This document shows, piece after piece, positions 26,606 to 40,669 of a stretch of DNA of 64,000 nt; position 1 is the first letter of the stretch, and every line of letters starts with the position of its first letter. The DNA lies in contig NZ_LMOZ01000002.1 of the NCBI RefSeq assembly GCF_001423695.1, positions 728,298-792,297 of the forward strand, in the 5' to 3' direction. The notes under the pieces were generated by a model. The model saw nothing but the letters and a program-made list of their open reading frames with translations, had not been told where the DNA came from and searched no databases. Source of the stretch: Leifsonia sp. Leaf336 (GTDB taxonomy: Bacteria > Actinomycetota > Actinomycetes > Actinomycetales > Microbacteriaceae). The translations under genes and the position numbers were made by a program.

Positions 26606-26749
26606 CGGTCTCCTCGTCGAGATCATCTTCGGGTCGCCTGAGGCTATCGCCGTCGTTACCGAATCGTAAGCTTTGAGAGGCGGGTGCACCTGTACTGGGG
26701 GTGGGTCCGCCGCGCGGCCACGAAGAAACCCACAACGGAGGGGCACCAC

Positions 26750-27715
26750 ATGCGAGTCATCGTCATCGGAGGCAGCGGACACATCGGCACCTTCCTGGTT
26801 CCGCGCCTGGTGCGGGCCGGCCACGACGTCGTGTCCATCAGCCGCGGCACGCGCACCCCGTACGCCGAGTCTCCCGAGTGGGCGCAGGTGGAAGTGGTCA
26901 CCGCCGACCGCGAGCAGGAGGACCGCGACGGAACCTTCGCCGACCGGATCGCCGCGCTGCATCCCGACGTCGTCATCGACCTCCTGTGCTTCACCCTCGA
27001 CTCGGCGACCGCGCTGGTCCAGCGGCTGCGCGGCGAGATCGGCCACTACGTCTTCTGCGGCTCGATCTGGAGCGCCGGCCCAAGCCGCAGCCTCCCGATC
27101 ACCGAGGAGACGGCGACGCCGCCGTTCGGCGAGTACGGCATCCAGAAGCACCGGATCGCGCGCATGCTCAGGGAGGAGACAGCGTCCGGAGGCCTCCTTA
27201 CGACCTCCCTGCACCCCGGCCACATCAGCGGCCCCGGCTGGGCGCCGATCGGCCCGACCGGCAACCTCGACCCGGCGGTGTGGACGACGCTCGCCTCGGG
27301 CGCGCCGCTGGCGATCCCGGGCCTCGGCGCCGAGACGATGGCCCACGTCCACGCCGACGACGTCGCCCAGGCGTTCGAGCTTGCAGTGGACCACCCGCTG
27401 AGCGCGGCGGGGGAGGCCTTCTTCATCGTGGCGCCGACCGCGCTGAACGTGCGCGGCTACGCGGAACTGGCGGCATCGTGGTTCGGGCGGACGGCCTCGC
27501 TGGAGTCGGTGACGTGGGAGGAGTTCCGGGCCGGGCTGAGCGCACGGGACGGCGAGACGAGCTGGGAGCACCTGGTGCGGAGTCAGGTCTTCTCGATCGA
27601 CAAGGCGCGGGACGTGCTGGGGTATGCGCCGCGGTATACGGCGGAGGAGACGGTGCTGGAGGCTGTGCGGTGGTTGGTGGAGGCGGGGGAGGTGGATGGG
27701 GGAATGGTCGTGTGA
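26750..27715 (+). CDS. NAD-dependent epimerase/dehydratase family protein
   Basis: A 321-residue extended-SDR-type protein with an N-terminal Rossmann motif IVIGGSGHIGTF (about residues 4-15). The downstream part has PGHISGPGW and HADDVAQAFELAV, as in NAD-dependent epimerases and nucleoside-sugar or isoflavone-reductase-like proteins. The usual SDR YxxxK appears as YGIQKHR in the expected position (about residue 130). GGAGGGG precedes ATG 26750. It is the last ordinary gene before the defence island. The substrate is unknown. Confidence 0.85.
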   Translation: MRVIVIGGSGHIGTFLVPRLVRAGHDVVSISRGTRTPYAESPEWAQVEVVTADREQEDRDGTFADRIAALHPDVVIDLLCFTLDSATALVQRLRGEIGHYVFCGSIWSAGPSRSLPITEETATPPFGEYGIQKHRIARMLREETASGGLLTTSLHPGHISGPGWAPIGPTGNLDPAVWTTLASGAPLAIPGLGAETMAHVHADDVAQAFELAVDHPLSAAGEAFFIVAPTALNVRGYAELAASWFGRTASLESVTWEEFRAGLSARDGETSWEHLVRSQVFSIDKARDVLGYAPRYTAEETVLEAVRWLVEAGEVDGGMVV

Positions 27716-28032
27716 ACACTGGCGCGGAAGCGATCACCCGTGTTGGAATTAGAGAACGCTCAGAAACCAGCCAGCATAAGACTCGTGACTCACTCAATGT
27801 GACCTGAGTTGCACGCGCTCGCTCATATATCTCGACCCCTACGGAATGGGCAGTTGCAGTTTCCGCGTCGAATGCACGCTAGTGCGTAGCGCGCACGAAG
27901 AATCGACAAGCGCTAGCTCGCGCGTGGGCTACGTTGGCCCGCTCTCTGTCAGAAATTGTCTCGCTGGATTCTCGCCGACAACGCTAGAGCCCTGGCGATC
28001 GGGTCCCGTATGACTTCACTCGACGACTCGCC
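27716..28032. other. Left junction of the defence island, no gene seen
   Basis: This 317-base stretch is noticeably less GC-rich than the preceding kilobases and has no frame with protein-like content. Short palindromes occur (such as AGCGCTAGCT near 27911) but no tRNA gene, integrase or clear attachment repeat. It marks the transition into the lower-GC island. Confidence 0.4.
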
Positions 28033-29961
28033 CTATGGCAAGAACGCATCCGAAAAGTAGCCCAGTGATGGGTCGGCCAGCGTCCCGACAACGAGCCCTC
28101 GATCTAGGAAACGGTTGAATTCTTCACAGCTCGTTTCGGGCAGCAGTGCACAAGCATGGCAGGCCGCCAGGTTGCACGAGTCCGGACCCTGGCCGTTTTC
28201 TCCTGCATCCATGCAGACTGGGTCGGTCGAGCACCAGCGCGCGTCTGCAAGGGCAGAAGCGAAGACTTGTCGAAGGTTTTCGGGACGAGCCATTCGAACC
28301 AGGCCACCCATCGTTCCTTCGGAGTCTCCGGCTGCGGTGTAGATGAGAGCCGCCGCCATATTGCGGTCTTCGGAGCTCGAGACGTAAAGGCGCTCCCTCA
28401 GCGATGCGGAGCTGTACCCGCACGTGAAGATCAGTTCGTTGATCAGAATGTGAGAGAGCGTATGTAGGAGGACGAATCGCGGGCTGATCGTTCGACCCTG
28501 GAGTCCTCGCTGGCTCGAGACCGATCCGAAGTGGTCAGTGATGAGATCAGCCCGGAGTTGAACCTCGGCACGCGCTTCCCAAGCGGCGAGGCGTTCATTA
28601 TCGAGCTCGAAGTAGATCCCTTCTCCCTTAACAACGTACGCGGGGAGCCAATCCTGGGCCGGCGTTAAGCTCGCCCGCCGCAACAAGGCCTTGCCTTCAG
28701 AGAGTTTGAGCTCGCCGTCACGAACTCTAGTGAACCCACGAAGCGCGCGGGTCTCCCGCAAAACATCTACAGACCGGACCCTCGATAGGTGCGCATGCAG
28801 GTCGACGTGGGTGCCGGGATCAGACGCGGCGAGATAGTCATCCTTTGGAGTCTCGCGGATCTTCGCGTACTCAGGGTGCCGCCAAATGTCGTTACTGGTG
28901 AGACTCTCGGCATCGGCGGGAATCTCCGCGGGCTCCTCAATTGGACCAGCGCCAATACCGAACTGATCTTGGTACGCGGCTACCAATTCTTCGTCCGAAA
29001 TCGGGGCAAACAGTTCGGGGGGCACGTTTCGGTCAAGGAGTCTTCGCAGCTGAGCGCCGGAGACATCAGCATCCGAGAGTTCGAACACGGTGGCAAAGGT
29101 CGCACTGACCGCAGGGTGACGCAAGAGCTGATGGACTTCTTCGCTCACTGCTCCCTCACGGCGAGGCAGGTAGATTGAGGACTCGACTTTCGGGAAATAC
29201 ACGTTTCCCGCCGCGCGCAGAGCTCCTCGAATCGGCTGATCGCAGACGCCCTCCAGCTGCGCGAGCCAAGGCCGTGCACCACTGCAAAGGTATGGCGCCT
29301 GAGGCGATACGAGTTGATCGCTGAGATTTGTGTGCTCGTCACCGGTTGCCTTGTCGAAGTGAGCCTCTGTAATGCCTCGGAGCGATCGTTCGTTGCCGCA
29401 GCGGTCGCAGGTCACCACCTGGCCTTCAAGTCCGCCCCCGCCACGTGACTTCAGACGGAGAGGACCTTGGCAAGCCGGGTCCACGGAACGATGGACCCAC
29501 TTGTCAAACGGAAAGTCTTCGAGGTGTCCCCGTGAACAGATTGCGACGAACGGCACCTGCGACATTCGAAACTTGAACTTCTTGTCGGCATGTCTAGGGT
29601 CAGGGCATTCCACCGGCGCCTTCATTGTTAGCTTGCTCAGCTCCAGACGCTTGCAGTACATGCAGAATGACCAACGCGGGAAACGAAGCACGGGAATGGT
29701 AAGCCTCAGATTCCGCTGGTCGACGCCCTGACCGGAATATCGGTAATCAGGAGGAAGGCGAAACTCAGACACCTTTAGGCGAGATTGGAGCCGCCAGTCA
29801 TGTTCCTGGTATTCCTCCATCGCGAGCGAACTCCGGTCGACGACTTCGTACCAGTGATCGAGGCCAGCAGTAATTACGGATGTCCCGTTGACCAGGACGC
29901 TCATCGCGCCGACGCCAAAAGGTGTCACGAGCTGTGCTCTCCGCATGGCGCCTGTGCTCAT
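28033..29961 (-). CDS. drmB: DISARM protein DrmB (DUF1998)
   Basis: A 642-residue cytosolic protein with a C-terminal DUF1998 domain, the marker of DrmB, which in DISARM anti-phage systems partners the DrmA helicase. Visible are N-terminal zinc-ribbon cysteines (CMYCKRLEL, CSRGHLED and CDRCGNERS), and the C-terminal cysteine series CSTDPVC, CNLAACHACALLPETSCEEF ending in NRFLDR, which is the DUF1998 hallmark. HTLSHILINELIFTCGYSSA precedes it. The start ATG 29961 (MSTGAMRRAQLVTPFG) overlaps the DrmA stop by 4 bases and has GGAGGAG upstream. It is the last gene of the seven-gene island. Druantia DruE also carries DUF1998, but is much larger and fused to its helicase. Confidence 0.88.
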   Translation of the reverse strand: MSTGAMRRAQLVTPFGVGAMSVLVNGTSVITAGLDHWYEVVDRSSLAMEEYQEHDWRLQSRLKVSEFRLPPDYRYSGQGVDQRNLRLTIPVLRFPRWSFCMYCKRLELSKLTMKAPVECPDPRHADKKFKFRMSQVPFVAICSRGHLEDFPFDKWVHRSVDPACQGPLRLKSRGGGGLEGQVVTCDRCGNERSLRGITEAHFDKATGDEHTNLSDQLVSPQAPYLCSGARPWLAQLEGVCDQPIRGALRAAGNVYFPKVESSIYLPRREGAVSEEVHQLLRHPAVSATFATVFELSDADVSGAQLRRLLDRNVPPELFAPISDEELVAAYQDQFGIGAGPIEEPAEIPADAESLTSNDIWRHPEYAKIRETPKDDYLAASDPGTHVDLHAHLSRVRSVDVLRETRALRGFTRVRDGELKLSEGKALLRRASLTPAQDWLPAYVVKGEGIYFELDNERLAAWEARAEVQLRADLITDHFGSVSSQRGLQGRTISPRFVLLHTLSHILINELIFTCGYSSASLRERLYVSSSEDRNMAAALIYTAAGDSEGTMGGLVRMARPENLRQVFASALADARWCSTDPVCMDAGENGQGPDSCNLAACHACALLPETSCEEFNRFLDRGLVVGTLADPSLGYFSDAFLP

Positions 29962-32900
29962 GGAAGCTCCTCCGGTGTGGTGTCCTCGAGGAGATAAGCC
30001 TGACTGATCTCGAGTTGGCATTCGGCGTCCACATTCCTCATGCTCGTCGGAACGTCCCAGATCGTCGATCTGCTTCCGAGGTCTGGAAGCGTACCCGCGA
30101 AGCGCATCAGCCCCTGCAGTGGATCGCCAAACGGTGCCGGGTTCGCGTCCCATTGCGTTCGCTCCCATCCGTCCCACTGTCTTGCCCGCTCCCGAGCGAT
30201 GTGGTCGAGCGCTGGAAGCTCATGTGGGTCCGCGATTGCAGCTCGACCCCGGAGAAGATCGATCGCTTGGTCATAGGCCGATTTGGGGAATGGATCGGGC
30301 CCAAGGGCTACGGGCGAGGTCTGCCGTATGTAGGCGACGGCAGCTGCATGAAGGGCCCGTCGCAGAACAGGAGTCGCAAACGGCGTCAGGGAAGTCGGCT
30401 CCACCTGCGCGTATAGCTGTTGATGATAGGTGCGAAAGCGTTCGTAGTGGCTGCGATCTCGGGGCTTGGCTGCCCCATAAATCGTGATAACAAGTCCCGG
30501 GCTAACTTCAGGTTTTCGACCAACACGGCCGCTGACCTGGATGTACTGCGCCGTGGTCTTCGGCTGACCGACGATCGTCATGAGGCCGAGCCGATCGATG
30601 TCGACGCCAACCTCGATGATGTTGGAGGCCAAGCAGATGTCGACGGCTTCTTGGCGGTCTTTGCCGGGAGCGAATTTCACCTGGAGCTGCTCAATCGCTT
30701 TGGGGATCTCATCCGATCTCCGCCGGGAAGTGAGCTCCATCGTACGCTGCGGCCATCGGGGATCGATCCCGTCGCGTCTGATGAGACCCGTGAGGTAGTC
30801 GGGGACGTCGGATTCCAAGAGTGAAACGGTGTTGCCCAGCTCCCGCAGCGAGTTGAGGAAGTTGAGATTCGTCCAGTAGCCGTCGCGGTCAGCTTCTGGG
30901 ATTGTCGTGGCAGCTTGTAAGGTCGCAGCGGTCACCCGAACTTGCACGGTCTGAGTGGAGCCAAGCGAGGCACTCATCACTCCGATGTATCGGCGACCCG
31001 GCTCTCGACTACCGTCAGGCTTGGTCGCTGGCTCCGCAAAAAAGGACCGGCCTTCCTCCAGTCCGTGAGGGGGAAATAATGCAACGCGGCCACGACCGAA
31101 CAGGCTGCGGACCTGATCCTCGTAACGACGTACCGTCGCCGTCGACGCGATGACCTTCGGCGGAACAGGGATAGCTCCCCGACGATCAGTGCAGAGTTCG
31201 TCAATCATGGGCTCGTAGAGGCCGACCATAGAGCCCAGCGGACCGGAGATCAGGTGCAGCTCGTCCTGGATGATGAGGCTCGGTGGCGAGACGTTTCGCG
31301 CGCCTTGATCATCAAGACCAAAGAGCCGCCTCGCCATGGGTCGCCATGCCATCATCGCGAATTTATCGACCGTGCCAATGACGATGGAGGGCCGCACATC
31401 GTAGATGTCCTCATCAACGACGTGGACAGGCAACCCCGACCGACGGGCGTATTTACATTGGGGGTCGATGCAACGAAAGACCACCTTGCCCGACATCTCC
31501 TCATACCCGATAGGCTCCTGCCCACCGCCGCGCTTCTGTTGGGGTCCCATCTGCGTGCCGCACCACGGACAGCGCAGCAGCAGGAAGAGGTTCTGCTCGT
31601 GGGACCGGGTGCGAAGAGCACGTAGGTTGTCGAGTGCACTCCGCCAGGAGTTTGGAGTGGAGCTACCTCCGAGCCAGATTCCGATTCCAAATGGAGCTCC
31701 ACCGAGATCAATTGAGTTTCGCTCCCGGATGTCTTCGAGGACGCAAACTAGGGATGCTGCCCGAAGGAACTGTTGGGCGGTAAGAAGACGCAACGTGTAT
31801 CTCATGAGCGTGTCGGTGCCGACATCGTTTGGGTTGCGAAGCCGCCGGGCGAGCAGACTCACTGCGGCCGCGCCGAGATAGGCCTCTGTCTTGCCGCCGC
31901 CGGTCGGGAAAAAGATCAGATCGACCTGAGCTCGCGAGGGACGCTCAGGCTCGATGAGTTCAGGCAGCACCGCCAGCAAGAATGCGATCTGGAACGGCCT
32001 CCAGAGCCCGCGTCCTTCCGGAACGACCGGTGTCGGGTGTGCACCGGCGACCCGCCAGACCCGGTCGCTACCTTGCTTCACCTCCCGCAGAGGGACGCTC
32101 GAACGGATCTGTTGCATCAGCATCGCCTCGTTTGCCCAACGAAAGGTCCGAGCAGCGAGTGCATTCGTAAATAGAAGACCCCAGCCTTCGCGCATGCGTT
32201 CCAGTGCTTCTCGCGCTCGAAGCATGTGCTCGCGCGCCGCGTGTTGGTACCTGGGCAGCAATGCCGATATCTCTGATTCGCGGCGCTCGATCCAAGCCTC
32301 GTACTGACTCAAAACGAGTTCGACCTGAGCACCCCCCTCGGCACTCCCTTCGGCCAGCTCTTTCATGCTTACCGAGACAAGCGTTCGATTCCCGTTGGCG
32401 TCGCGCACAGGGTTGCCCGTGGCGTCTGCGAGGTAGACGTTGGGCGAAAGGCTGACAACCTCGTGTGCGGGCAGTGCGACTGCATCTACCCGCGAAGTAT
32501 TGCCGCTCTCATCGACGACACCCCACTCCGCTGCGCACCCATGACCGATCGCGTAGGTTCGCTGGTTGCGATACAGCAAGTCGAGGGACTTCTGCTCCGC
32601 ATCTCGGTCCGGCAGGTCCACCTCGGGATATGGGGCGATGTCGCTGCCTTCATCAGCCGAAACCGAAAAACCCACCTGAAACAGGGCCGACGCAGGACCA
32701 GACCCGGGGGTGTCGTTGACGACGGCTACGGTTACCAGGCGGAGGGTGTCATCATCGGATCCGGACACCGGGCGACTGAATACTCTGACCGCGACCGGCA
32801 CATTGTCTATACCGTCTGACCGTGAAACGTCCACGACCTTCAGCCGGTTCGTCTCTTGTAGGAGCGTGCGTCCCGGGATGGCGCCGGTCGCCTGGAATGG

Positions 32901-33461
32901 CCGCCTGACCCACCACTCCACGGGCTTCGCGAGCCCAGGAAGGTGGATAGCCAGCTTTTCGTAGCGGGCGGCTTGAAGCGCAATCGTGAAGGTGCCCGCA
33001 TTCGAGGTCCGGCATTGGAACGAGATTGCCATTGCGGACGGCTTGAAAGCGTTCGCGTCGGCGAGATCGAAGTCATCGGAATCGGCGACGTCGTGCCGAA
33101 CCCGACCCGTGATCTCGATCGGCGAGCCTTGTGGGTTATCCTCCGTCGTCGCAACGCCAGTTACTCCAACGAGCTCTTGCGTGTCATCAAGATCTCGGCT
33201 GTCAATAGCTGAGCCACCGACAAGGGCCCCCGGGTAAAGCACGCCGATTCCGTAACGCGTCAACGGCGTCCCACTCGTGAGGATCTCCTGCCCCGTGTCG
33301 GCATCATGGAACTGCCCTCTGGACTCTTCCACCTTCCCGAAATGCACGGCGCCCGCAGCGCACTTCAATGGCACACCGCGGATCTGGTCGCCGTCGAGCG
33401 GGCCGAAGAGTTCTCTACGTAACGCGTCCTCGACGGTGCGACGAGCGTCGACACCACTCAT
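29958..33461 (-). CDS. drmA: DISARM helicase DrmA
   Basis: A 1167-residue SF2-type helicase. The N-terminal half (about 1-500) is a family-specific region. Walker A FFPTGGGKTEAYLG is at about residue 520, motif II reads QDELHLISG at about 732, motif III is ASTATVRRYEDQV, and motifs V-VI read IIEVGVDIDRLG and QYIQVSGRVGR at about 977. A CxxC pair (LRCPWCG) and a second pair (CIDPQCKYARR) between the lobes suggest a zinc-binding insert. Length and motifs fit DrmA, the DNA-translocating core of DISARM. Both ends overlap neighbours by 4 bases (NERD-helicase upstream, DrmB downstream), so the three are one translational unit. Confidence 0.88.
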   Translation of the reverse strand: MSGVDARRTVEDALRRELFGPLDGDQIRGVPLKCAAGAVHFGKVEESRGQFHDADTGQEILTSGTPLTRYGIGVLYPGALVGGSAIDSRDLDDTQELVGVTGVATTEDNPQGSPIEITGRVRHDVADSDDFDLADANAFKPSAMAISFQCRTSNAGTFTIALQAARYEKLAIHLPGLAKPVEWWVRRPFQATGAIPGRTLLQETNRLKVVDVSRSDGIDNVPVAVRVFSRPVSGSDDDTLRLVTVAVVNDTPGSGPASALFQVGFSVSADEGSDIAPYPEVDLPDRDAEQKSLDLLYRNQRTYAIGHGCAAEWGVVDESGNTSRVDAVALPAHEVVSLSPNVYLADATGNPVRDANGNRTLVSVSMKELAEGSAEGGAQVELVLSQYEAWIERRESEISALLPRYQHAAREHMLRAREALERMREGWGLLFTNALAARTFRWANEAMLMQQIRSSVPLREVKQGSDRVWRVAGAHPTPVVPEGRGLWRPFQIAFLLAVLPELIEPERPSRAQVDLIFFPTGGGKTEAYLGAAAVSLLARRLRNPNDVGTDTLMRYTLRLLTAQQFLRAASLVCVLEDIRERNSIDLGGAPFGIGIWLGGSSTPNSWRSALDNLRALRTRSHEQNLFLLLRCPWCGTQMGPQQKRGGGQEPIGYEEMSGKVVFRCIDPQCKYARRSGLPVHVVDEDIYDVRPSIVIGTVDKFAMMAWRPMARRLFGLDDQGARNVSPPSLIIQDELHLISGPLGSMVGLYEPMIDELCTDRRGAIPVPPKVIASTATVRRYEDQVRSLFGRGRVALFPPHGLEEGRSFFAEPATKPDGSREPGRRYIGVMSASLGSTQTVQVRVTAATLQAATTIPEADRDGYWTNLNFLNSLRELGNTVSLLESDVPDYLTGLIRRDGIDPRWPQRTMELTSRRRSDEIPKAIEQLQVKFAPGKDRQEAVDICLASNIIEVGVDIDRLGLMTIVGQPKTTAQYIQVSGRVGRKPEVSPGLVITIYGAAKPRDRSHYERFRTYHQQLYAQVEPTSLTPFATPVLRRALHAAAVAYIRQTSPVALGPDPFPKSAYDQAIDLLRGRAAIADPHELPALDHIARERARQWDGWERTQWDANPAPFGDPLQGLMRFAGTLPDLGSRSTIWDVPTSMRNVDAECQLEISQAYLLEDTTPEELP

Positions 33462-35167
33462 AACCGGCCCCCTAACAATTGGCGCAGTGTGCTTGTTTCT
33501 ACCAGAACGGTGAGACGGTCGGTCGCTCGCGTGAGTCCGACATAGAGCAGAGCATCAAAGTTCGACGCACCAGAATCGACAAGGTCCGTGACCACAACGG
33601 CCGGCGCATCGAGACCTTTGAACGCGTGAATGGTCGAGAAGCGAAGTTCACCGCGCGACGGAGATTTTCCGTCCGCCGGTCGCAATACTTGGCGCAGCCA
33701 CGGATCGGACGTACTTGCTGCTACTGAGCTTTCGCCAAGGGGACTCAGCACCACGATTTCGCTTAGATCAAAGCCTTCGTCGCGAAGGTCGCTGATCGCC
33801 TTCTTCAAAAGCGCGGACTGATCGTCGCCCGAACTGTATCGGACAATAACCGGGTCGATCCCATCGTCGTTTCGACGGAACTCTTTGAAACCGGGCTCGA
33901 GGTGCCCAAGCAGGTTGACCTCGTATCCGATTCGCGGCAAATTGCGACAGTTTTCAAGCAACCGAATCGATGCCAGGTGTGGCGCCCTCGAGCGGAGGCG
34001 CTCACGGCCCTCCTCGTTGGCGTAAATCGCTTGACGCTCAAAGTCGCCGAACAAGAGAACACGGCCTTCCCGGAGTCCGCCAACCACAAGAAAATCGAGG
34101 AGGTCGAGGTATGCATCAGTCGCGATGTCCTGCACCTCATCGATTATCAAGAAGTCGCCAACCTCTTTCGAGCCTCGTGATGCAAGCCCATCGAGTGCGC
34201 GATCTGGTAGCTCTCGCTCCCAGAAGTCACTCCCCGCTCCATCAGGCGGTCCGCCCAAACCTGCCAGACGTAGCATCTCCTGATGCAGCGTGCTAACGCC
34301 CAGGCCGACTGTGTCCGAAAACTTGTCGCGCAGGCTGCGGCCAAGAAACCGGTTGAAACAGAGAAGTCGTCCACTTCGGCCTTGTGCGATTTCCCGCTGA
34401 GCAGTTTCGACGGCTAGGAAGGTCTTCCCCGTTCCAGCTGGACCGGTGAATAGAACAGACTTGTTGTCGGCCGCGGCATCGAGCGCTCGAAATTGCTCCT
34501 CGACAAACTGTGCTAGCTGTCCCTCCCTTGCGCGTCGGCGATCGCTTGGGGTGGAGACGATCTCGAAGCGCGGGCGAAGCAGCTGGGCAATCTTGTTGGC
34601 AAGGACCCCATCTGGCCCCAACCCGTTATTGCCGAAGTGCTTGAGAGTTGCCGAGAGGTGCTGAGCTCCGGCAGACATGACTCGCTTAACGGAAAAGAAT
34701 GCCGACGGCAGGTCCTGTGAGTCTAGAACTTGCCAGTCGTGCCACTCCGGCGAATCTGGGAGGCTCGTTCGGGCCCTAACTCCGGTGAACCACACCGCGT
34801 ACAGCGTCGGAACATCGCGTAAATCAACTCGCTTCTTAAGCAAGTACTCACGGATGCTGTACATGGCTCCTTGAGCCTGTTGGAATGGACTGCGCGCGGT
34901 CGGCGCATCGCGCCCGAGCCGCCACCTGCCGTCGCTGAGGCGTTCAACAGAGCGATGTGACTTGACCTCGACCACCAGCAGTCCAGCTCTCGGCACGATG
35001 ACGATGAAATCGGCCTCGCCCTCAACCTGGCGCTTATGCTGAGCGATTCCGAGCGAATGAAGCACGGTCCAGTGTTCGGTGCCAGGAGCATTCTGAAGCG
35101 CCGCGAACACCGACTTTTCTCCTGGGGGCGCCGTGTCCACGCAGTACGCCGGGATCATTCGAGCCAT
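33458..35167 (-). CDS. NERD nuclease-domain / UvrD-like helicase fusion
   Basis: A 569-residue protein. An N-terminal NERD domain shows the PD-(D/E)XK-like series GEADFIVIV...LLVVEVKSH (about residues 49-72), with acidic residues plus the EVK lysine. An SF1 helicase follows: Walker A FTGPAGTGKTFLAVE (about 245), Walker B FLIIDEVQDI (about 343), the arginine region ENCRNL, and motif VI YVGLTRATDRLTVLV near the end. It would be a DNA-processing ATPase with a possible nuclease. It is not one of the named DISARM core proteins, yet it is locked into the operon by a 4-base overlap with DrmA and a 13-base overlap with the gene upstream. It may supply the nuclease role of the missing DrmC. Confidence 0.87.
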   Translation of the reverse strand: MARMIPAYCVDTAPPGEKSVFAALQNAPGTEHWTVLHSLGIAQHKRQVEGEADFIVIVPRAGLLVVEVKSHRSVERLSDGRWRLGRDAPTARSPFQQAQGAMYSIREYLLKKRVDLRDVPTLYAVWFTGVRARTSLPDSPEWHDWQVLDSQDLPSAFFSVKRVMSAGAQHLSATLKHFGNNGLGPDGVLANKIAQLLRPRFEIVSTPSDRRRAREGQLAQFVEEQFRALDAAADNKSVLFTGPAGTGKTFLAVETAQREIAQGRSGRLLCFNRFLGRSLRDKFSDTVGLGVSTLHQEMLRLAGLGGPPDGAGSDFWERELPDRALDGLASRGSKEVGDFLIIDEVQDIATDAYLDLLDFLVVGGLREGRVLLFGDFERQAIYANEEGRERLRSRAPHLASIRLLENCRNLPRIGYEVNLLGHLEPGFKEFRRNDDGIDPVIVRYSSGDDQSALLKKAISDLRDEGFDLSEIVVLSPLGESSVAASTSDPWLRQVLRPADGKSPSRGELRFSTIHAFKGLDAPAVVVTDLVDSGASNFDALLYVGLTRATDRLTVLVETSTLRQLLGGRL

Positions 35168-36687
35168 TGCGCCCCTCGATCCGAGAACGGCACGCGCGCC
35201 TCGTGTCGGGCGACGAGCTCCGTGAACGGCGAAATGCCGAGGACTTTCGTCACAAATATTCCCCTGAAACCTGGCTCAGTGATGTCGAGCGTCATATGAC
35301 CCATGCGCTCAAGCTCGTGCAGGTCGGCATTGTCCGCGACAGCCTCGAGGCGGTTACGTAGTTCACGAGTTGCGCGGTGAACCTCGTATCGAAGCGTCGA
35401 TGCGTTTTCGAAGTATGGCTGCACTTGGAGCCCCAGCCAGGTGAGGACCAGTTCGAAGTCGCGGTCGCGTTGCGGCCGGATGACGTGCGGGGATATCCAA
35501 GCGCTCACCTGCCCCGCGGCACGAACATCGAGGGTACGGAGCGCTACTTCAGAATCGCGGATACCATTCGTTTTCAACCGATCCGAAAGAGCCGCTTTCC
35601 ACGTCGCCTGCGAGTCTCGGATGGATGCCGCGCGAGTTCCGAGCCTGTCGAATGCCCTTTCGTGCAGTGACTCGCTCTCGCCGGCACCCTCGCGGAGAAG
35701 CAAGTATGTGCCCGCCGATAGGAGCGAAACGTCGACGTACGTGACCCGCTCCCCCGCAGGCTGAGTGGGGTCAAGGGAACGGATACGTTCACCGTCTGTT
35801 TCGAGCCAAATCGCACGACCGCCGCTTAGGAGAACCTTGTGCGCTTCCACTTCATCGAGTGTTGGAGCGCGGTCTTCACTGACTCGTATGCCCCAGAAAG
35901 GCTGGGGCAGTAGTTCCTCTTCGGGGATTCCGTTCAGGCCGTCCTGTGTCTCTTCCGGCACCTCCTGCGCCGACTCGCCAGCTTCGACGACTCGGACGCC
36001 GACCCGAATCCCGCCTTCCGCGTAGTCCGAGATTGGAGACCGAGGGAGGCTCAGGTCGCCGAACCACCCGGGGACAACGAAAGTTACCTCCGGAGTACGC
36101 GGCGCTGTTACTGCGATGGGTTTGAAGAACCTCGGGGGACCAACAAAATACGCGATTTCCTCGGAAACTTCCACACGCTCCAGGTCCCCGAGTGTTAGTA
36201 CCCGAAGGCCATCCGTCGCAAGCCAGCCGCCGAGGGCCTCGCGAGCACGCGAGCTTGCGGCGACAATCACAGCTGTCCCAACTCCCACTTCGTTCGCCGA
36301 CTCAACGACGACACGGCCGATGAGTGGGTCGCGTGTCAGGAGCGCGCTCGCGGCGTCGCGTATCTCGGTCAGCACCTCGGGCTCTCCCACGGCTCCCGCA
36401 AGCCGCGCTGCCTGCCGTTTTACTCGCTCGACTCCAGACCTCAGAATGTCATTGCGCTCGATTGGCAGCGGATCAGTGATGAGATGCCATCGGAGCAACT
36501 TCGCCGGGCCGGCCAGATCATCCCAGACCCCGGGACCATCGCGCTGCACAAGCCGGAAAAGGCTGCGCGTCGCTGCATCGAAGCGCGATGCCAGCGAATC
36601 ATGCACGGCGATAATCTGCACGCCCTCGCGTACAAGCGCAGACGATGCTGCGTAGCGGCGGTCGAGCTCCGCCACACGCGATGTCAT
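35155..36687 (-). CDS. Unrecognised defence-island protein, possible C-terminal half of a DrmE-like factor
   Basis: A 510-residue protein I cannot assign to a family with confidence. The N-terminal 150 residues are helical (RYAASSALVREGVQIIAVHDSL and a FRLVQRDGPGVWDDLAG stretch). A Rossmann-like strand pattern follows (VGTAVIVAASSRAREALGGWL, then LRVLTLGDLERV), resembling the second RecA lobe of a degenerate helicase. After that come a beta-rich middle and a helical C-terminus. No Walker motif is seen. It starts at ATG 36687, overlapping the preceding gene by 4 bases, and overlaps the NERD-helicase gene by 13. Together with the 314-residue protein upstream it adds up to about 820 residues, roughly the size reported for DrmE, so a split DrmE is my working hypothesis. 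Confidence 0.6.
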   Translation of the reverse strand: MTSRVAELDRRYAASSALVREGVQIIAVHDSLASRFDAATRSLFRLVQRDGPGVWDDLAGPAKLLRWHLITDPLPIERNDILRSGVERVKRQAARLAGAVGEPEVLTEIRDAASALLTRDPLIGRVVVESANEVGVGTAVIVAASSRAREALGGWLATDGLRVLTLGDLERVEVSEEIAYFVGPPRFFKPIAVTAPRTPEVTFVVPGWFGDLSLPRSPISDYAEGGIRVGVRVVEAGESAQEVPEETQDGLNGIPEEELLPQPFWGIRVSEDRAPTLDEVEAHKVLLSGGRAIWLETDGERIRSLDPTQPAGERVTYVDVSLLSAGTYLLLREGAGESESLHERAFDRLGTRAASIRDSQATWKAALSDRLKTNGIRDSEVALRTLDVRAAGQVSAWISPHVIRPQRDRDFELVLTWLGLQVQPYFENASTLRYEVHRATRELRNRLEAVADNADLHELERMGHMTLDITEPGFRGIFVTKVLGISPFTELVARHEARVPFSDRGAQWLE

Positions 36688-37628
36688 AGCGCCACCGTGA
36701 AGGCGAACGCCTCCACGCCAGTTGGCGCCGCCCAACCCAGGTCGCTAGCCAGCGACAAGGGGGCGCCTCGAGAGTTCCTGAGCTGGACAACTTGTTCCGC
36801 CGCGGTCTCGTCCGCGACCGAACGATCGAAGATGCACACCACGACGGGAACAAGGATGCCGTTCAAGTACCGGATTGCTGCCTGCCCATCAAGGATCACG
36901 AGGTTAAGGTCTTCGGGCAGGGAGGCCAGCTGTTCCCCGAAACCCGCTGACGAATATATGCGAGTGAACCAGGTCGCCGATTTGTCGGTCTTAGGGAGAA
37001 GGAGAGTTTCGATCGCGTCACCGTCCGCGTCGTCGCCTCGGGCGAGGACGCCCTCGAGGTCGTCGAGAATCCAGCTCTTGGTACCGACGATGGCAACGTC
37101 GGCGGCAGGAGCGACGAGCCGCCGCTCCCAGTCTCGATCGACGCCAGTCATGCGACCGATGCTGCCCAATGGCGGGCGCGGCATCTTCTCCGCGGGGTCC
37201 GCTTCGGCAACCGGCGCGACCGCAGCCATCCGATCCACGGCCCACTGCCCCGCCAGCGTGACTCTTGGTGGTCGGTGCGATTCATCAAGACCTTGAAACC
37301 GACCCGAGATTACGTGCGTTGCGTTCACGGCACGGTAGTTCCGCCCAGGCAGCGCTTCCCGAAGCCTTATAAGCGGATCCGTGATTGTCTCGGCCGGTGG
37401 GCGACAGACTGTCCACCCGGTGCCTACTAAAACGGCCGCGAATTCACGACTAGGCACCGAAAGGGCGACTATCAACTGGCGTCCACTATATGTCTGAGCT
37501 TTCCGCGACAACCGAGTCCCAAGGGCGAGAAGGGGCCCAATCCACGGGGATCGAATTGGCTCGGCATCGCGACTTTCGGCAAGGCTGAGCAGCACTGCCG
37601 GACCCGGCCTAGCCCCCGCCTCAACCAT
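36684..37628 (-). CDS. Unrecognised defence-island protein, possible N-terminal half of a DrmE-like factor
   Basis: A 314-residue protein with alternating strands and helices. Segments such as RQLIVALSVPSREFAAVLVGTGW, VAIVGTKSWILDDLEGVL and LNLVILDGQAAIRYLNGILV followed by VPVVVCIFDRS resemble the first RecA lobe of SF2 helicases, with a DEAD-box-like strand reading LDGQ instead of DExx. No P-loop was found, so ATPase activity is doubtful. GGGGGA precedes ATG 37628. It is followed directly by the 510-residue gene with an ATGA overlap. The gap to the methyltransferase upstream is 68 bases. Its function is unknown; the DrmE relationship is inferred from size, position and helicase-like character. 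Confidence 0.58.
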   Translation of the reverse strand: MVEAGARPGPAVLLSLAESRDAEPIRSPWIGPLLALGTRLSRKAQTYSGRQLIVALSVPSREFAAVLVGTGWTVCRPPAETITDPLIRLREALPGRNYRAVNATHVISGRFQGLDESHRPPRVTLAGQWAVDRMAAVAPVAEADPAEKMPRPPLGSIGRMTGVDRDWERRLVAPAADVAIVGTKSWILDDLEGVLARGDDADGDAIETLLLPKTDKSATWFTRIYSSAGFGEQLASLPEDLNLVILDGQAAIRYLNGILVPVVVCIFDRSVADETAAEQVVQLRNSRGAPLSLASDLGWAAPTGVEAFAFTVAL

Positions 37629-37696
37629 GAATCCCCCGCTCGCAGTCCACCCTAGCGATGACCTTCGACATCACGGTCGTGGTAACTCCGGGCGTG

Positions 37697-38731
37697 TCAT
37701 GCTGCGTCAGCAACAGTTCCTTCCGCGGCGCTCCTAAGCGCCGTGGCAACAGCAGCAGCCAGCGATCGGGCGACGGGCGGCGGGACAGCGTTCGAGATTT
37801 GCTCCACCTGCTGCGACAGAGTTCCCTCGATTACGAATGACGTGGGGAATCCCTGAAGCAGCATCGCCTCGAAGATGCTGAGTCGACGAGTTCCGTCAGG
37901 GTGCACGTGGATTTCACGGTGTCCGTAGGCTACGGTCGGGCTTGGTTTGTCCCAAGAAAGTCGACGGAAACTTCGCGTAGGTGCCGGGCTCAAGCCCTCG
38001 CCAGAAAACCGCCTGGATACGGGCTTCATAGTCCAGTGGTTCGGATGCTCTGGAATGTCATCAACTAGCAGATCTCGCGCGAAGAACGCGGGTGCCGGGA
38101 GGTGACCGATAGCTCCGCGGACTGTGAGGTCCGCCTCCGTTGCGTGAAGCGGTACGAATGTCTTTGCAGCAGTTTCGTCCTTGAATCCCGAGATGATGAC
38201 TCGAGTGCGAGTCTGTGGCACGCCATAGTCGAGAGCTGAGTGTTCCGCGACTCCGGCCGTGAGTTCAAGGTCCTTGAAGCGCCGCATGATGCCCTGGAAG
38301 GTGACCGCGTGCTTCGCGTCACGGATGCCCATTACGTTTTCGAAAAGAACGAATTGGACGTCATACAGCTGTTGTAGGGCTTCAACGATTTCCAGGTAGA
38401 ACGAGGGCATCTGGTTACGAGGATCGTCGGCATGCGACTTCGGGTTCGCTCGCGAAAATCCCTGGCACGGCGGTCCGCCGATAACACCAATTGCCTCACC
38501 CTTTCGGAGTACCTTCTCAATCTGACCAAGCACGATGAGCTTGCCCGTCGAGGTATCCCGGTCGGTGATATCCACGGCGACCGAGGTCGTCCTCGGGAAG
38601 TTACGGCGGTGGGTTTTGATTGCGGCGGCCATTCGATCAACAGCGAAGACGATCTCGTAGCCTTGATCATGAAACCCGAGGTCGAGCCCTCCCGCACCTG
38701 AGAACAGACTCACGATGCGAGGCAAGGTCAT
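37697..38731 (-). CDS. DNA (cytosine-5)-methyltransferase, DrmMII-like
   Basis: A 344-residue methyltransferase forming 5-methylcytosine with S-adenosylmethionine. All key motifs are present: I LFSGAGGLDLGF (9-20), IV GGPPCQGFS with catalytic Cys89, VI ENV (131-133), VIII QTRTRVII (173-180) and X QISNAVPPPVARSL near the C-terminus. The target-recognition region (about 185-280) is short, so the recognised sequence cannot be guessed. The start ATG 38731 (MTLPRIVSL) has GAAGGAG seven bases before it, and a 28-codon longer frame is rejected. Class 2 DISARM uses a methyltransferase of this type to protect host DNA. It also might serve the DUF262 protein upstream. Confidence 0.9.
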   Translation of the reverse strand: MTLPRIVSLFSGAGGLDLGFHDQGYEIVFAVDRMAAAIKTHRRNFPRTTSVAVDITDRDTSTGKLIVLGQIEKVLRKGEAIGVIGGPPCQGFSRANPKSHADDPRNQMPSFYLEIVEALQQLYDVQFVLFENVMGIRDAKHAVTFQGIMRRFKDLELTAGVAEHSALDYGVPQTRTRVIISGFKDETAAKTFVPLHATEADLTVRGAIGHLPAPAFFARDLLVDDIPEHPNHWTMKPVSRRFSGEGLSPAPTRSFRRLSWDKPSPTVAYGHREIHVHPDGTRRLSIFEAMLLQGFPTSFVIEGTLSQQVEQISNAVPPPVARSLAAAVATALRSAAEGTVADAA

Positions 38732-38861
38732 CCGAGTGCTCCTTCGATCCTGCCGGCAGCCCGAGGGGGCCATTTTTCTCCAGCGTAGTGCCGAAGACTG
38801 CGCAGGCCCGGCCATTCCAGCGTGTCATCCGAACGGACTGAGTCGTTGAAGGCGCGCCGCG

Positions 38862-40499
38862 TCAAAACGGTCCAAGTACCCCCTGCGCAAAAGACTCAGT
38901 GCGCTCTTTGATCACAGTCGGTGTCCACTCCATGAAGGCGAGCGTTTCGAGGCTCCTTGGGTAGTCAGACACGCGGGGCGACAAGTACGTCGCTTTTTTA
39001 TCCTCGAATTCCTTATTTTGCGCGGACGAGTTCTTCCCTTTGCTCAAGAGAACGAGATTCCCAACCGAGTGGACGAGCTCCCTGGCTTGTTCCTCCGTAA
39101 AATCGGATAGCCATCGACTCCCGATTCTCGGCGTCTGCGGGAGCACGTCCTCAATGGACCGCGGGGCGAACTCTCGGGGCGCGCCCAGTTCAGCGACCTG
39201 AATCTCAGCGCGCACAAGGAGGTACTTGGCGAAGCCAGCCCCATAGAAGTTTGCGCTCCGGCACGCCTTCTGAACTGCGTCCAACGGGACCGCAAATGAT
39301 TCGATGACGGCAGCAGCGTGGGGCGAAACTTCAATCGTCTTGAGAATCGCAGTGTAGGCCGAGTACCTCTCGTCTTTACGAACACCACGAACCCACTGGT
39401 CGACAAAAAGGCGCTCGATTGCTAAGACAAAGTCCATCATCGACACCGTGCCATACTTTCGCGCGTAGGCCAGGATGCACGCCTTCCACTCGCTTGCTCG
39501 GAACTCGCCAACCATTGCGTGCATCAGGGTCTTGAATCGCGCATGATCGGGGCCGGCAACTAGATAATCGCGACTAATGAAAATGGCGTCCCACAAGTCC
39601 ACGAACTCACCCAGTTCGTCGATGAAGTTCACACCCGCCGACGGGCGAGCCTTGTTCGCATAGACCCGCTTCTCGAATTCATGGAGCAGGTCACCCTCGG
39701 GCTTGTCCTGCACATAGACAAGTCGGAGCGCAGCGAAGAGGCTCTCGAAGTCCCCTTCGCCCAGAGCCTCCTCGAAACCCTCCCATTTGCGCGCATATTC
39801 CTCGCGTAGAGCGGTATCAGCGATCACCCCTGGGCTCAAATTGACAGCCTTCAGCACATCGATCCGTCGCAGCTGCTTACCGCGATCATTTACCACGGTA
39901 AAGAGACGGAAGGCGTCATCAAAGCTCGCCGCCGCTAGGTAAATGACGACAACATGCTGAACGATGAACTCGACCAAATCATGCAGATAGTCCTGACTTT
40001 CGTTGCCGAGTGCGTCGCGAAAAATAGCAACGGCCGCGCGATACCGCTGGTCGACACTCGTTTGGAGCGGCTCATCGGATTCGAGGTCCGATGTGCCACC
40101 GAGCGATGTCACGATTTTGCTGTACGGCGCCGAGTCGCGGACGAAGATTCGCGGCCTTGACGAGATCTTCAGGAACCTCTTCTCCGGCTGCACAAGCATG
40201 TCTTGAACTTCAGCGGCATCCGATTCCAAAAGATCACGGAGGACAGCGAGGAGGATCGATAGCGCGGTAAGCCGCTGCTGTCCATCTACGACGTCGAAGG
40301 TATCCGCGGCCGTCTCATGGAGTACGAGCGTCCCTAGGAAATAGTCATTCTCTCGGTTGGCCTCCATCAAGTCCTCAATGAGATCCGAAAGCTGATCCTT
40401 GTCCCACGAGAAGGGGCGCTGGTAGTTGGGAATCGAGAAGAAGAATCCCTCCGCAAATAACTTGCCGATGCGCACGGTCGCGCTATCTAGCTTCGCCAT
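38862..40499 (-). CDS. DUF262/DUF1524 protein (GmrSD-like) with altered nuclease motif
   Basis: A 545-residue protein like single-chain GmrSD type IV restriction enzymes and SspE/BrxU relatives. The N-terminal DUF262 domain shows IPNYQRPFSW (23-32) and the DGQQR motif (72-76), typical of an NTP-using domain. The C-terminal DUF1524/HNH-like domain shows SIEDVLPQ followed by SVGNLVLLSKGKNSSAQNKEFEDKKATY. In homologues the first part reads IEHxLPQ with a catalytic histidine; here it is Asp451 (codon GAC; CAC would be His). Nuclease activity may therefore be lost or changed. It is the first gene of the island, 130 bases upstream of the methyltransferase, and may be a separate defence module. Confidence 0.87.
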   Translation of the reverse strand: MAKLDSATVRIGKLFAEGFFFSIPNYQRPFSWDKDQLSDLIEDLMEANRENDYFLGTLVLHETAADTFDVVDGQQRLTALSILLAVLRDLLESDAAEVQDMLVQPEKRFLKISSRPRIFVRDSAPYSKIVTSLGGTSDLESDEPLQTSVDQRYRAAVAIFRDALGNESQDYLHDLVEFIVQHVVVIYLAAASFDDAFRLFTVVNDRGKQLRRIDVLKAVNLSPGVIADTALREEYARKWEGFEEALGEGDFESLFAALRLVYVQDKPEGDLLHEFEKRVYANKARPSAGVNFIDELGEFVDLWDAIFISRDYLVAGPDHARFKTLMHAMVGEFRASEWKACILAYARKYGTVSMMDFVLAIERLFVDQWVRGVRKDERYSAYTAILKTIEVSPHAAAVIESFAVPLDAVQKACRSANFYGAGFAKYLLVRAEIQVAELGAPREFAPRSIEDVLPQTPRIGSRWLSDFTEEQARELVHSVGNLVLLSKGKNSSAQNKEFEDKKATYLSPRVSDYPRSLETLAFMEWTPTVIKERTESFAQGVLGPF

Positions 40500-40669
40500 T
40501 CCGACCCCTCTCGGCGCTCGCTAACAATGCGCAAGCTGACTTTAGCTGATAACGCACGGCACCAATCTCCGCGGCGCTTGCAGGTGAGCTGGGGCCATGA
40601 TCCCCTTCAGGCCGGGCCCGGGCATCACACAGCAGATGGGCAGGTAGAGGTCTCCCATTTCTCCCCCGA

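Follow-up and report, generated by a model that had tools for sequence, protein, structure and literature searches.

A probable class 2-like DISARM locus of Leifsonia in which DrmE is divided between two genes

We analysed a 64,000-nucleotide stretch (the window) of contig NZ_LMOZ01000002.1 from Leifsonia sp. Leaf336, which carries a block of seven open and intact minus-strand reading frames between positions 28033 and 40499. Our reading, to which we give a probability of about 0.7, is that this block is a horizontally acquired, class 2-like DISARM system with a core of drmE-N, drmE-C, a NERD-UvrD gene, drmA and drmB together with a C5-cytosine methyltransferase gene, and that its DrmE was cut once, the two-gene form having spread through about 10 phyla. 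As judged from their sequence relatives, the two small proteins of the block make up DrmE between them, one being its N-terminal and the other its C-terminal half; DrmE is the protein that marks class 2 DISARM (class definitions follow PMC9252829 and PMC9142583).

The drmB product (28033-29961), the OB-CON-DUF1998 (MZB) partner of DrmA, scored 425 bits against NF038324 (cut-off 240), 34 bits against PF09369, 1.3e-68 against the PADLOC DrmB model and 1.2e-69 against the solved DrmB chain 7s9v_B, and it is the sole MZB/DUF1998 protein of the whole genome. The drmA gene (29958-33461) encodes a YprA-type superfamily 2 (SF2) helicase in its short form, which matched PADLOC DrmA at 2.7e-199 and the solved DrmA chain 7s9v_A at 4e-141 and keeps the motifs GGGKTEA, DELH, STAT and GRVGR intact. 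The two are separate genes, leaving DUF1998 unfused, and the drmB start at 29961 is preceded by a Shine-Dalgarno-like GGAGG and overlaps drmA by the 4 bases of an ATGA. The Serratia DrmAB complex inhibits itself until DNA with a 5' overhang opens it, and cytosine methylation slows or represses it (PMC9142583); the window DrmA aligns with Serratia DrmA along its length, with V1144 opposite the methylation-sensing V1296, provided that the last 16 aligned residues are ungapped. The C5-cytosine methyltransferase gene (37697-38731), to which we ascribe a drmMII-like role, matched PF00145 at 3.3e-49, placing a DNA methyltransferase in the locus. Its motifs are intact, its best PADLOC model is DruM2 (3e-96, with DrmMII at 5e-45), and a 66% identical gene occupies the same place in Demequina. 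The first-pass annotation of this DNA had predicted a DrmA-type helicase, a DrmB (DUF1998) protein, a C5 methyltransferase, a NERD/UvrD protein and a DUF262/DUF1524 protein, and profile searches confirmed all five. When DrmA and DrmB were compared with the components of other known systems, the DrmA and DrmB models won by a wide margin.

Direct searches of the products of drmE-N (36684-37628, 314 residues) and drmE-C (35155-36687, about 510 residues) gave no match in Pfam, PADLOC (to E 1), NCBIfam or PDB sequences, the DrmE models NF038316 and NF038323 included, and their identity was obtained through relatives instead. Iterated profiles, run after the DrmA scan described below, gathered 53 open reading frames into the drmE-C family and 37 into the drmE-N family. 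Relatives of drmE-C in Nostoc and Neobacillus matched NF038316 (DrmE_fam) at 4e-18 to 3e-21, all within the second half of the model, the best split relative reaching 75.6 bits against a cut-off of 80. The C-terminal half of a longer protein, of 850-1,725 residues and encoded at the same operon position, accounts for 16 of the 53 drmE-C family members; four of four such intact proteins tested exceeded the DrmE_fam cut-off, and drmE-C corresponds to residues ~400-885 of intact DrmE. The drmE-N family aligned colinearly with the N-terminal half of intact DrmE at an hhalign score of 46.8 (E 1.2e-5, 226 columns), or 59.3 with a longer set, as against a maximum of 21.3 in controls comprising five unrelated families and 30 column shuffles; the identity is only 11%. 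Once concatenated, drmE-N and drmE-C were colinear with the undivided protein in an alignment of 730 columns (E 1.3e-33). The drmE-C profile also matched, at 1.7e-20, the canonical class 2 DrmE of two Bacillales genomes (NF038323, above 1,000 bits), in which the same loci carry DrmA, DrmB, a PLD-motif gene and a C5 methyltransferase. The window locus has a DrmE homologue, as two genes, upstream of drmA, and this is a marker feature of class 2. The first-pass annotation had left both proteins unassigned; the concatenated alignment and the DrmE_fam matches of their relatives overturn that description. Scanning 20 relatives and 396 genomes of the phylum with NF038316 returned three matches, one of them an intact DrmE (genome G524).

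Two other loci carry long proteins of related placement. A Bradyrhizobium metagenome-assembled genome (L048:3044-8218) encodes a 1,725-residue protein that ends in the DrmE C-terminal half and has a Walker A motif, GADGTGKS, close to the N-terminus; it precedes NERD-UvrD, DrmA and DrmB. Plasmid pMK02 of Lactiplantibacillus plantarum (L101) carries a C5 methyltransferase, an 801-residue protein at the DrmE position, DrmA and DrmB, with no DrmC; the 801-residue protein matched neither DrmE model and is possibly a further DrmE-like family.

The AlphaFold2 models of the two halves were confident (pLDDT 91.0 with a predicted template modelling score of 0.89 for drmE-N; pLDDT 88.8 for drmE-C). The drmE-N model aligned mainly with RecA1 domains (NAT10, NS3 helicase, Chd1 and INO80; Z 7.4-9.3), and the first 240 residues of the drmE-C model aligned with RecA2 domains (Hef, Hera, YxiN and XPB; Z 8.0-9.9). 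Because two independent halves agree with consecutive domains of one fold, we read DrmE as RecA-like. In the models, drmE-N would be a degenerate RecA1-like domain with a small beta insert, and drmE-C a RecA2-like domain with a helical insert, followed by a C-terminal domain. A Walker A motif (GxxxxGK[ST]) was found in none of the 37 drmE-N family members, drmE-N of the window included. From these models we infer a helicase-like body without ATP binding in which the cut falls at the natural RecA1/RecA2 joint, and they suggest that split DrmE is a heterodimeric pseudo-helicase.

Scanning 85,000 species genomes with DrmA gave at least 581 relatives, the best 80 of which were taken as loci; because only these were kept, the phylum counts given here are minimum figures, skewed towards loci with a similar DrmA. 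Separate drmE-N and drmE-C genes are present at about 36 loci belonging to about 10 phyla (Actinomycetota, Bacillota, Cyanobacteriota, Chloroflexota, Acidobacteriota, Verrucomicrobiota, Myxococcota, Nitrospirota, Thermodesulfobacteriota and Pseudomonadota); L064, where drmE-C alone was detected, was counted as probably split. Within the order, 4 of 395 other genomes had relatives of drmE-C (E 1e-3; one very weak, 5.5e-4), and three plasmids carry them too, namely pROB02 of Rhodococcus opacus B4 and two from Nostoc. In clear cases the two genes are near neighbours upstream of DrmA, one Nostoc copy having a transposase between them. The full order of methyltransferase, drmE-N, drmE-C, NERD-UvrD, DrmA and DrmB is repeated in Demequina, Gordonia, a Propionibacteriaceae metagenome-assembled genome, Microbacterium and Microtetraspora, the methyltransferase being related in the first three (56-66% identity) and distant in the last two. 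The gene order is not a product of chance and recurs widely; the DUF262 gene alone does not follow it. Neither of the two refuting conditions set in the first pass, better profile scores for another known system and a gene order unique to this genome, came true.

Fused and split forms of DrmE never stood together in the loci read, alternating instead at the same operon position. The junction between drmE-N and drmE-C is a short overlap or gap across many phyla and often an overlap of exactly 4 bases, which excludes sequencing frameshifts as the general cause of the split. In a posterior mean site frequency (PMSF) tree of 58 DrmA sequences, all split loci fell on one side of a branch with an SH-like approximate likelihood-ratio (SH-aLRT) support of 100, and a FastTree of all loci (89 rows) recovered the same single split clade. 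Two truncated loci (L059 and L105) were labelled as split by tree position in the PMSF tree only; they were labelled separately in the FastTree, where they fell within the split clade. With the tree rooted on class 1, intact-DrmE loci branch off successively and the split clade is nested among them, so that one fission of an intact DrmE gene fits best as the simplest history.

The gene between drmE-C and drmA (33458-35167) encodes a NERD nuclease of the PD-(D/E)xK type (PF08378, 2e-11) fused to a UvrD-like superfamily 1 helicase (PF13538, UvrD_C_2, 3e-9). It adjoins DrmA in 26 of 36 split and 13 of 16 intact-DrmE loci, and the NERD residues E51, D53 and E67-x-K69, the Walker A K248 and the Walker B D343-E344 are invariant in 38 of 38 aligned proteins (25 from split and 13 from fused loci). 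Given this invariance of both nuclease and helicase residues, the alignment suggests that NERD-UvrD is the nuclease arm of the system; our literature search found no description of NERD together with DISARM. The absence of DrmC, the PLD nuclease of DISARM, was noted earlier and holds for the whole genome, where the best match to the DrmC model NF038319 reaches 44.7 bits against a cut-off of 133 and against 167 for a class 1 positive control. DrmC passed the cut-off near none of the split or fused loci searched, and among their genomes only that of L033 has a passing copy, far from the locus. DrmC is dispensable and often missing from DISARM (PMC9142583).

In six loci of Mycolicibacterium, Rhodococcus and Streptomyces (L058:3390-14853, and likewise L062, L069, L080, L085 and L087), a DrmAB arrangement without DrmE is ordered as an upstream protein of about 1,600 residues, a UvrD-type helicase often without NERD residues, DrmA and DrmB; the upstream protein of L058 has a sacsin-type ATPase domain and a RadD/Hef-like helicase. 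In nine loci of Streptomyces, Kitasatospora and Micromonospora (L063, L065, L072, L073, L077, L084, L089, L092 and L095), a NERD-UvrD-related open reading frame of about 360-440 residues lies just after DrmB, the usual position of DrmC.

The locus resembles class 2 DISARM (drmE-drmA-drmB-drmC-drmMII) in its separate, adjacent DrmA and DrmB, its DrmE homologue upstream of drmA and its C5 methyltransferase, but differs in the two-gene DrmE, the NERD-UvrD gene between DrmE and DrmA, the lack of DrmC, the methyltransferase at the other end and a DrmA that the tree sets well away from the canonical class 2 branch. With class 1 (DrmD, DrmMI, DrmA, DrmB and DrmC) it shares DrmA and DrmB, whereas it has DrmE instead of DrmD (for which only an ATPase match at 0.009 was seen), no MmeI-like methylase, none of the seven proteins matching the DrmMI model, and a separate DrmA branch. 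The intact-DrmE loci recognised by NF038316 (for example G524/L017) have the same order and partners (NERD-UvrD, DrmA and DrmB) and likewise no DrmC, but their DrmE is undivided, with about 850-1130 residues; we found no paper describing that arrangement either. With separate DrmA and DrmB genes and a methyltransferase, the locus fits the core definition of DISARM, and it has the class 2 marker in two pieces. Because the DrmC and cut-off tests of both named classes failed, we would class it as a DISARM lineage not yet described, neither class 1 nor class 2. The first-pass suggestion of a DISARM subtype or related system not yet described stands as far as a DISARM-like variant without DrmC and outside the libraries is concerned, its unassigned genes being the DrmE halves; of the genes that it placed outside the standard set, only NERD-UvrD is a true conserved addition, the DUF262 gene being an unconserved passenger.

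Several observations weigh against this interpretation. The window DrmA, at 824 bits on NF038325, lies under the NCBIfam DISARM equivalog cut-off of 950, as do five other members tested (813-894 bits), and drmE-N did not match the N-terminal half of the two canonical class 2 DrmE sequences, probably for reasons of profile depth. The RecA likeness of DrmE relies on middling Z scores (7.4-9.9), near the level about which the tool warns, and Foldseek alone was weak for the two models (best E 4e-3 and 2e-2). The methyltransferase differs among loci and is lacking near about a third of them, and split loci of Bacillota and Nostoc have no NERD gene, so that NERD-UvrD is not strictly obligatory. We also know of no phage-protection test for any member of the split-DrmE family.

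The NERD-less loci would be expected if NERD-UvrD were a frequent neighbour outside the system, like the NERD-helicases near reverse-transcriptase defence systems, while DrmAB and DrmE block phage DNA without it. PADLOC does hold related NERD-helicases in other systems, and DrmAB alone may block replication (PMC9142583), but the gene lies between drmE and drmA in most split and intact-DrmE loci with invariant active sites, and in the window it overlaps both of its neighbours, which makes mere neighbourhood unlikely. That the two small proteins are unrelated new components at the DrmE position, in a new system sharing only DrmA and DrmB with DISARM, would agree with their lack of direct matches and with the low identity of drmE-N to intact DrmE. 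We nevertheless regard it as improbable, given the DrmE_fam matches of drmE-C relatives (down to 3e-21), the colinearity of the concatenated halves and the exclusive alternation of fused and split forms at one operon place.

Decay of an ordinary class 2 system, with DrmC lost, DrmE frameshifted and other genes hitch-hiking, would account for the missing DrmC, the two pieces of DrmE and the lost HNH histidine of the DUF262 protein described below. Decay would not, however, preserve one and the same cut, and here a two-piece DrmE, typically with a short overlap, is conserved in one clade of about 36 loci and about 10 phyla. The motifs of DrmA, NERD, UvrD and the methyltransferase are also all intact, and we rejected decay as highly improbable. 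Membership of ARMADA, Druantia, Dpd or TALON rather than DISARM is barely credible. The YprA-type helicase is common to all of these, the methyltransferase has Druantia's model as its best, and TALON also has a NERD nuclease, there with other partners (TPR-CSD and TBP genes, beside a YprA helicase; PMC12458937); here the NERD domain is on a UvrD helicase. By contrast, a separate DUF1998 gene is a hallmark of DISARM, the operon has no BrxHII helicase, PglX methylase, TPR-CSD or TBP gene, and DrmA models lead those of DpdJ and DruE by more than 100 orders of magnitude (DruE at 0.0083 against 2.7e-199). These systems were rejected on the DrmA and DrmB scores and the gene separation.

The seven longest open reading frames (28033-30177, 29958-33461, 33458-35167, 35155-36735, 36684-37628, 37697-38815 and 38862-40499) overstate three starts, the likely ATGs being at 29961 for drmB, 36687 for drmE-C and 38731 for the methyltransferase. 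Transcription runs from DUF262/DUF1524 through the C5 methyltransferase, drmE-N, drmE-C, NERD-UvrD and drmA to drmB. With the likely ATGs, the five-gene core has overlaps of 4, 13, 4 and 4 bases, mostly of the ATGA type, in agreement with the first-pass count of seven minus-strand genes, five joined by overlaps of 4-13 bases. Because of these overlaps the last five genes, drmE-N to drmB, are probably one translationally coupled operon.

The first gene (38862-40499) encodes a GmrSD-type protein with both domains (GmrSD_N, PF03235, 7e-34; GmrSD_C, PF07510, 5e-21) and, as in GmrSD type IV restriction, an intact DGQQR nucleoside-triphosphatase motif of the GmrS type. The HNH general base of GmrD is H114 (PMC4619093), but here an Asp replaces it (RSIEDVLPQ, against RSIEHVLPQ in a 50.5% identical Nonomuraea homologue that keeps the His and is sited away from DISARM genes), leaving the HNH catalytic triad of the DUF1524 domain incomplete. 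To judge from this substitution, the protein may be a type IV enzyme that has lost its nuclease activity or been repurposed. No counterpart was found in any other of about 88 loci (E 1e-10), and the gene is probably an independent, optional defence gene outside the core. Just downstream of the split-DrmE cassette on pROB02 (L007) lie genes for Vsr, NaeI-type and HNH endonucleases and a C5 methyltransferase, and a DUF262 gene.

A 13.9-kb segment (26705-40651) that includes the locus has no counterpart in the congener G404, where blastn and the junction letters place window bases 26704 and 40652 only 38 bases apart; at the same site G797 and G806 have 1.2 and 5.2 kb of other DNA. The site, variable in the genus, lies between a DUF2510 gene and a conserved flank from about 40.65 kb. 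The GC content at third codon positions is 0.63-0.68 in the seven genes and 0.91-0.92 in two neighbouring host-like genes, and the indel also contains a host-like epimerase gene (26750-27715, plus strand). We saw no integrase in this segment of the window. Because the flanks meet in G404, other DNA fills the site in G797 and G806, and third-position GC is low, the block was probably acquired horizontally at a variable chromosomal site.

DrmE is among the DISARM components still to be studied (PMC9142583). A fuller proposal, which we hold tentatively and at somewhat short of even odds, is that DrmE is a degenerate helicase of the SF2 type with no ATP site, made an obligate heterodimer in one phylum-crossing DISARM lineage by one fission between RecA1 and RecA2, and an adaptor handing DNA trapped by DrmAB to NERD-UvrD in place of DrmC, in what would be a third DISARM class. 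The mechanism that we propose for the locus is, like its function, drawn from homology to the identified parts. The methyltransferase would mark and protect host DNA, and DrmA-DrmB, by analogy with the Serratia complex, would load on unmodified DNA with a 5' single-stranded end, translocate and unwind the foreign DNA. More conjecturally, DrmE-N and DrmE-C would pair into a two-RecA-domain body that, since it has no ATP-binding motif, may serve as a clamp or adaptor and not as a motor, coupling DrmAB to NERD-UvrD, in which the UvrD helicase would feed the NERD nuclease to degrade the DNA, a task for which DrmC is the usual candidate.

The split form goes unrecognised as DISARM in PADLOC, NCBIfam and PGAP, the last of which labels the Rhodococcus copy only as 'helicase-related', 'DUF1998', 'NERD' and 'hypothetical'. 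Since tools that detect DISARM by DrmC and full-length DrmE would overlook this form, DISARM is probably undercounted. A lineage with a built-in NERD nuclease-helicase and a two-gene DrmE makes both the nuclease step of DISARM and the role of DrmE testable.

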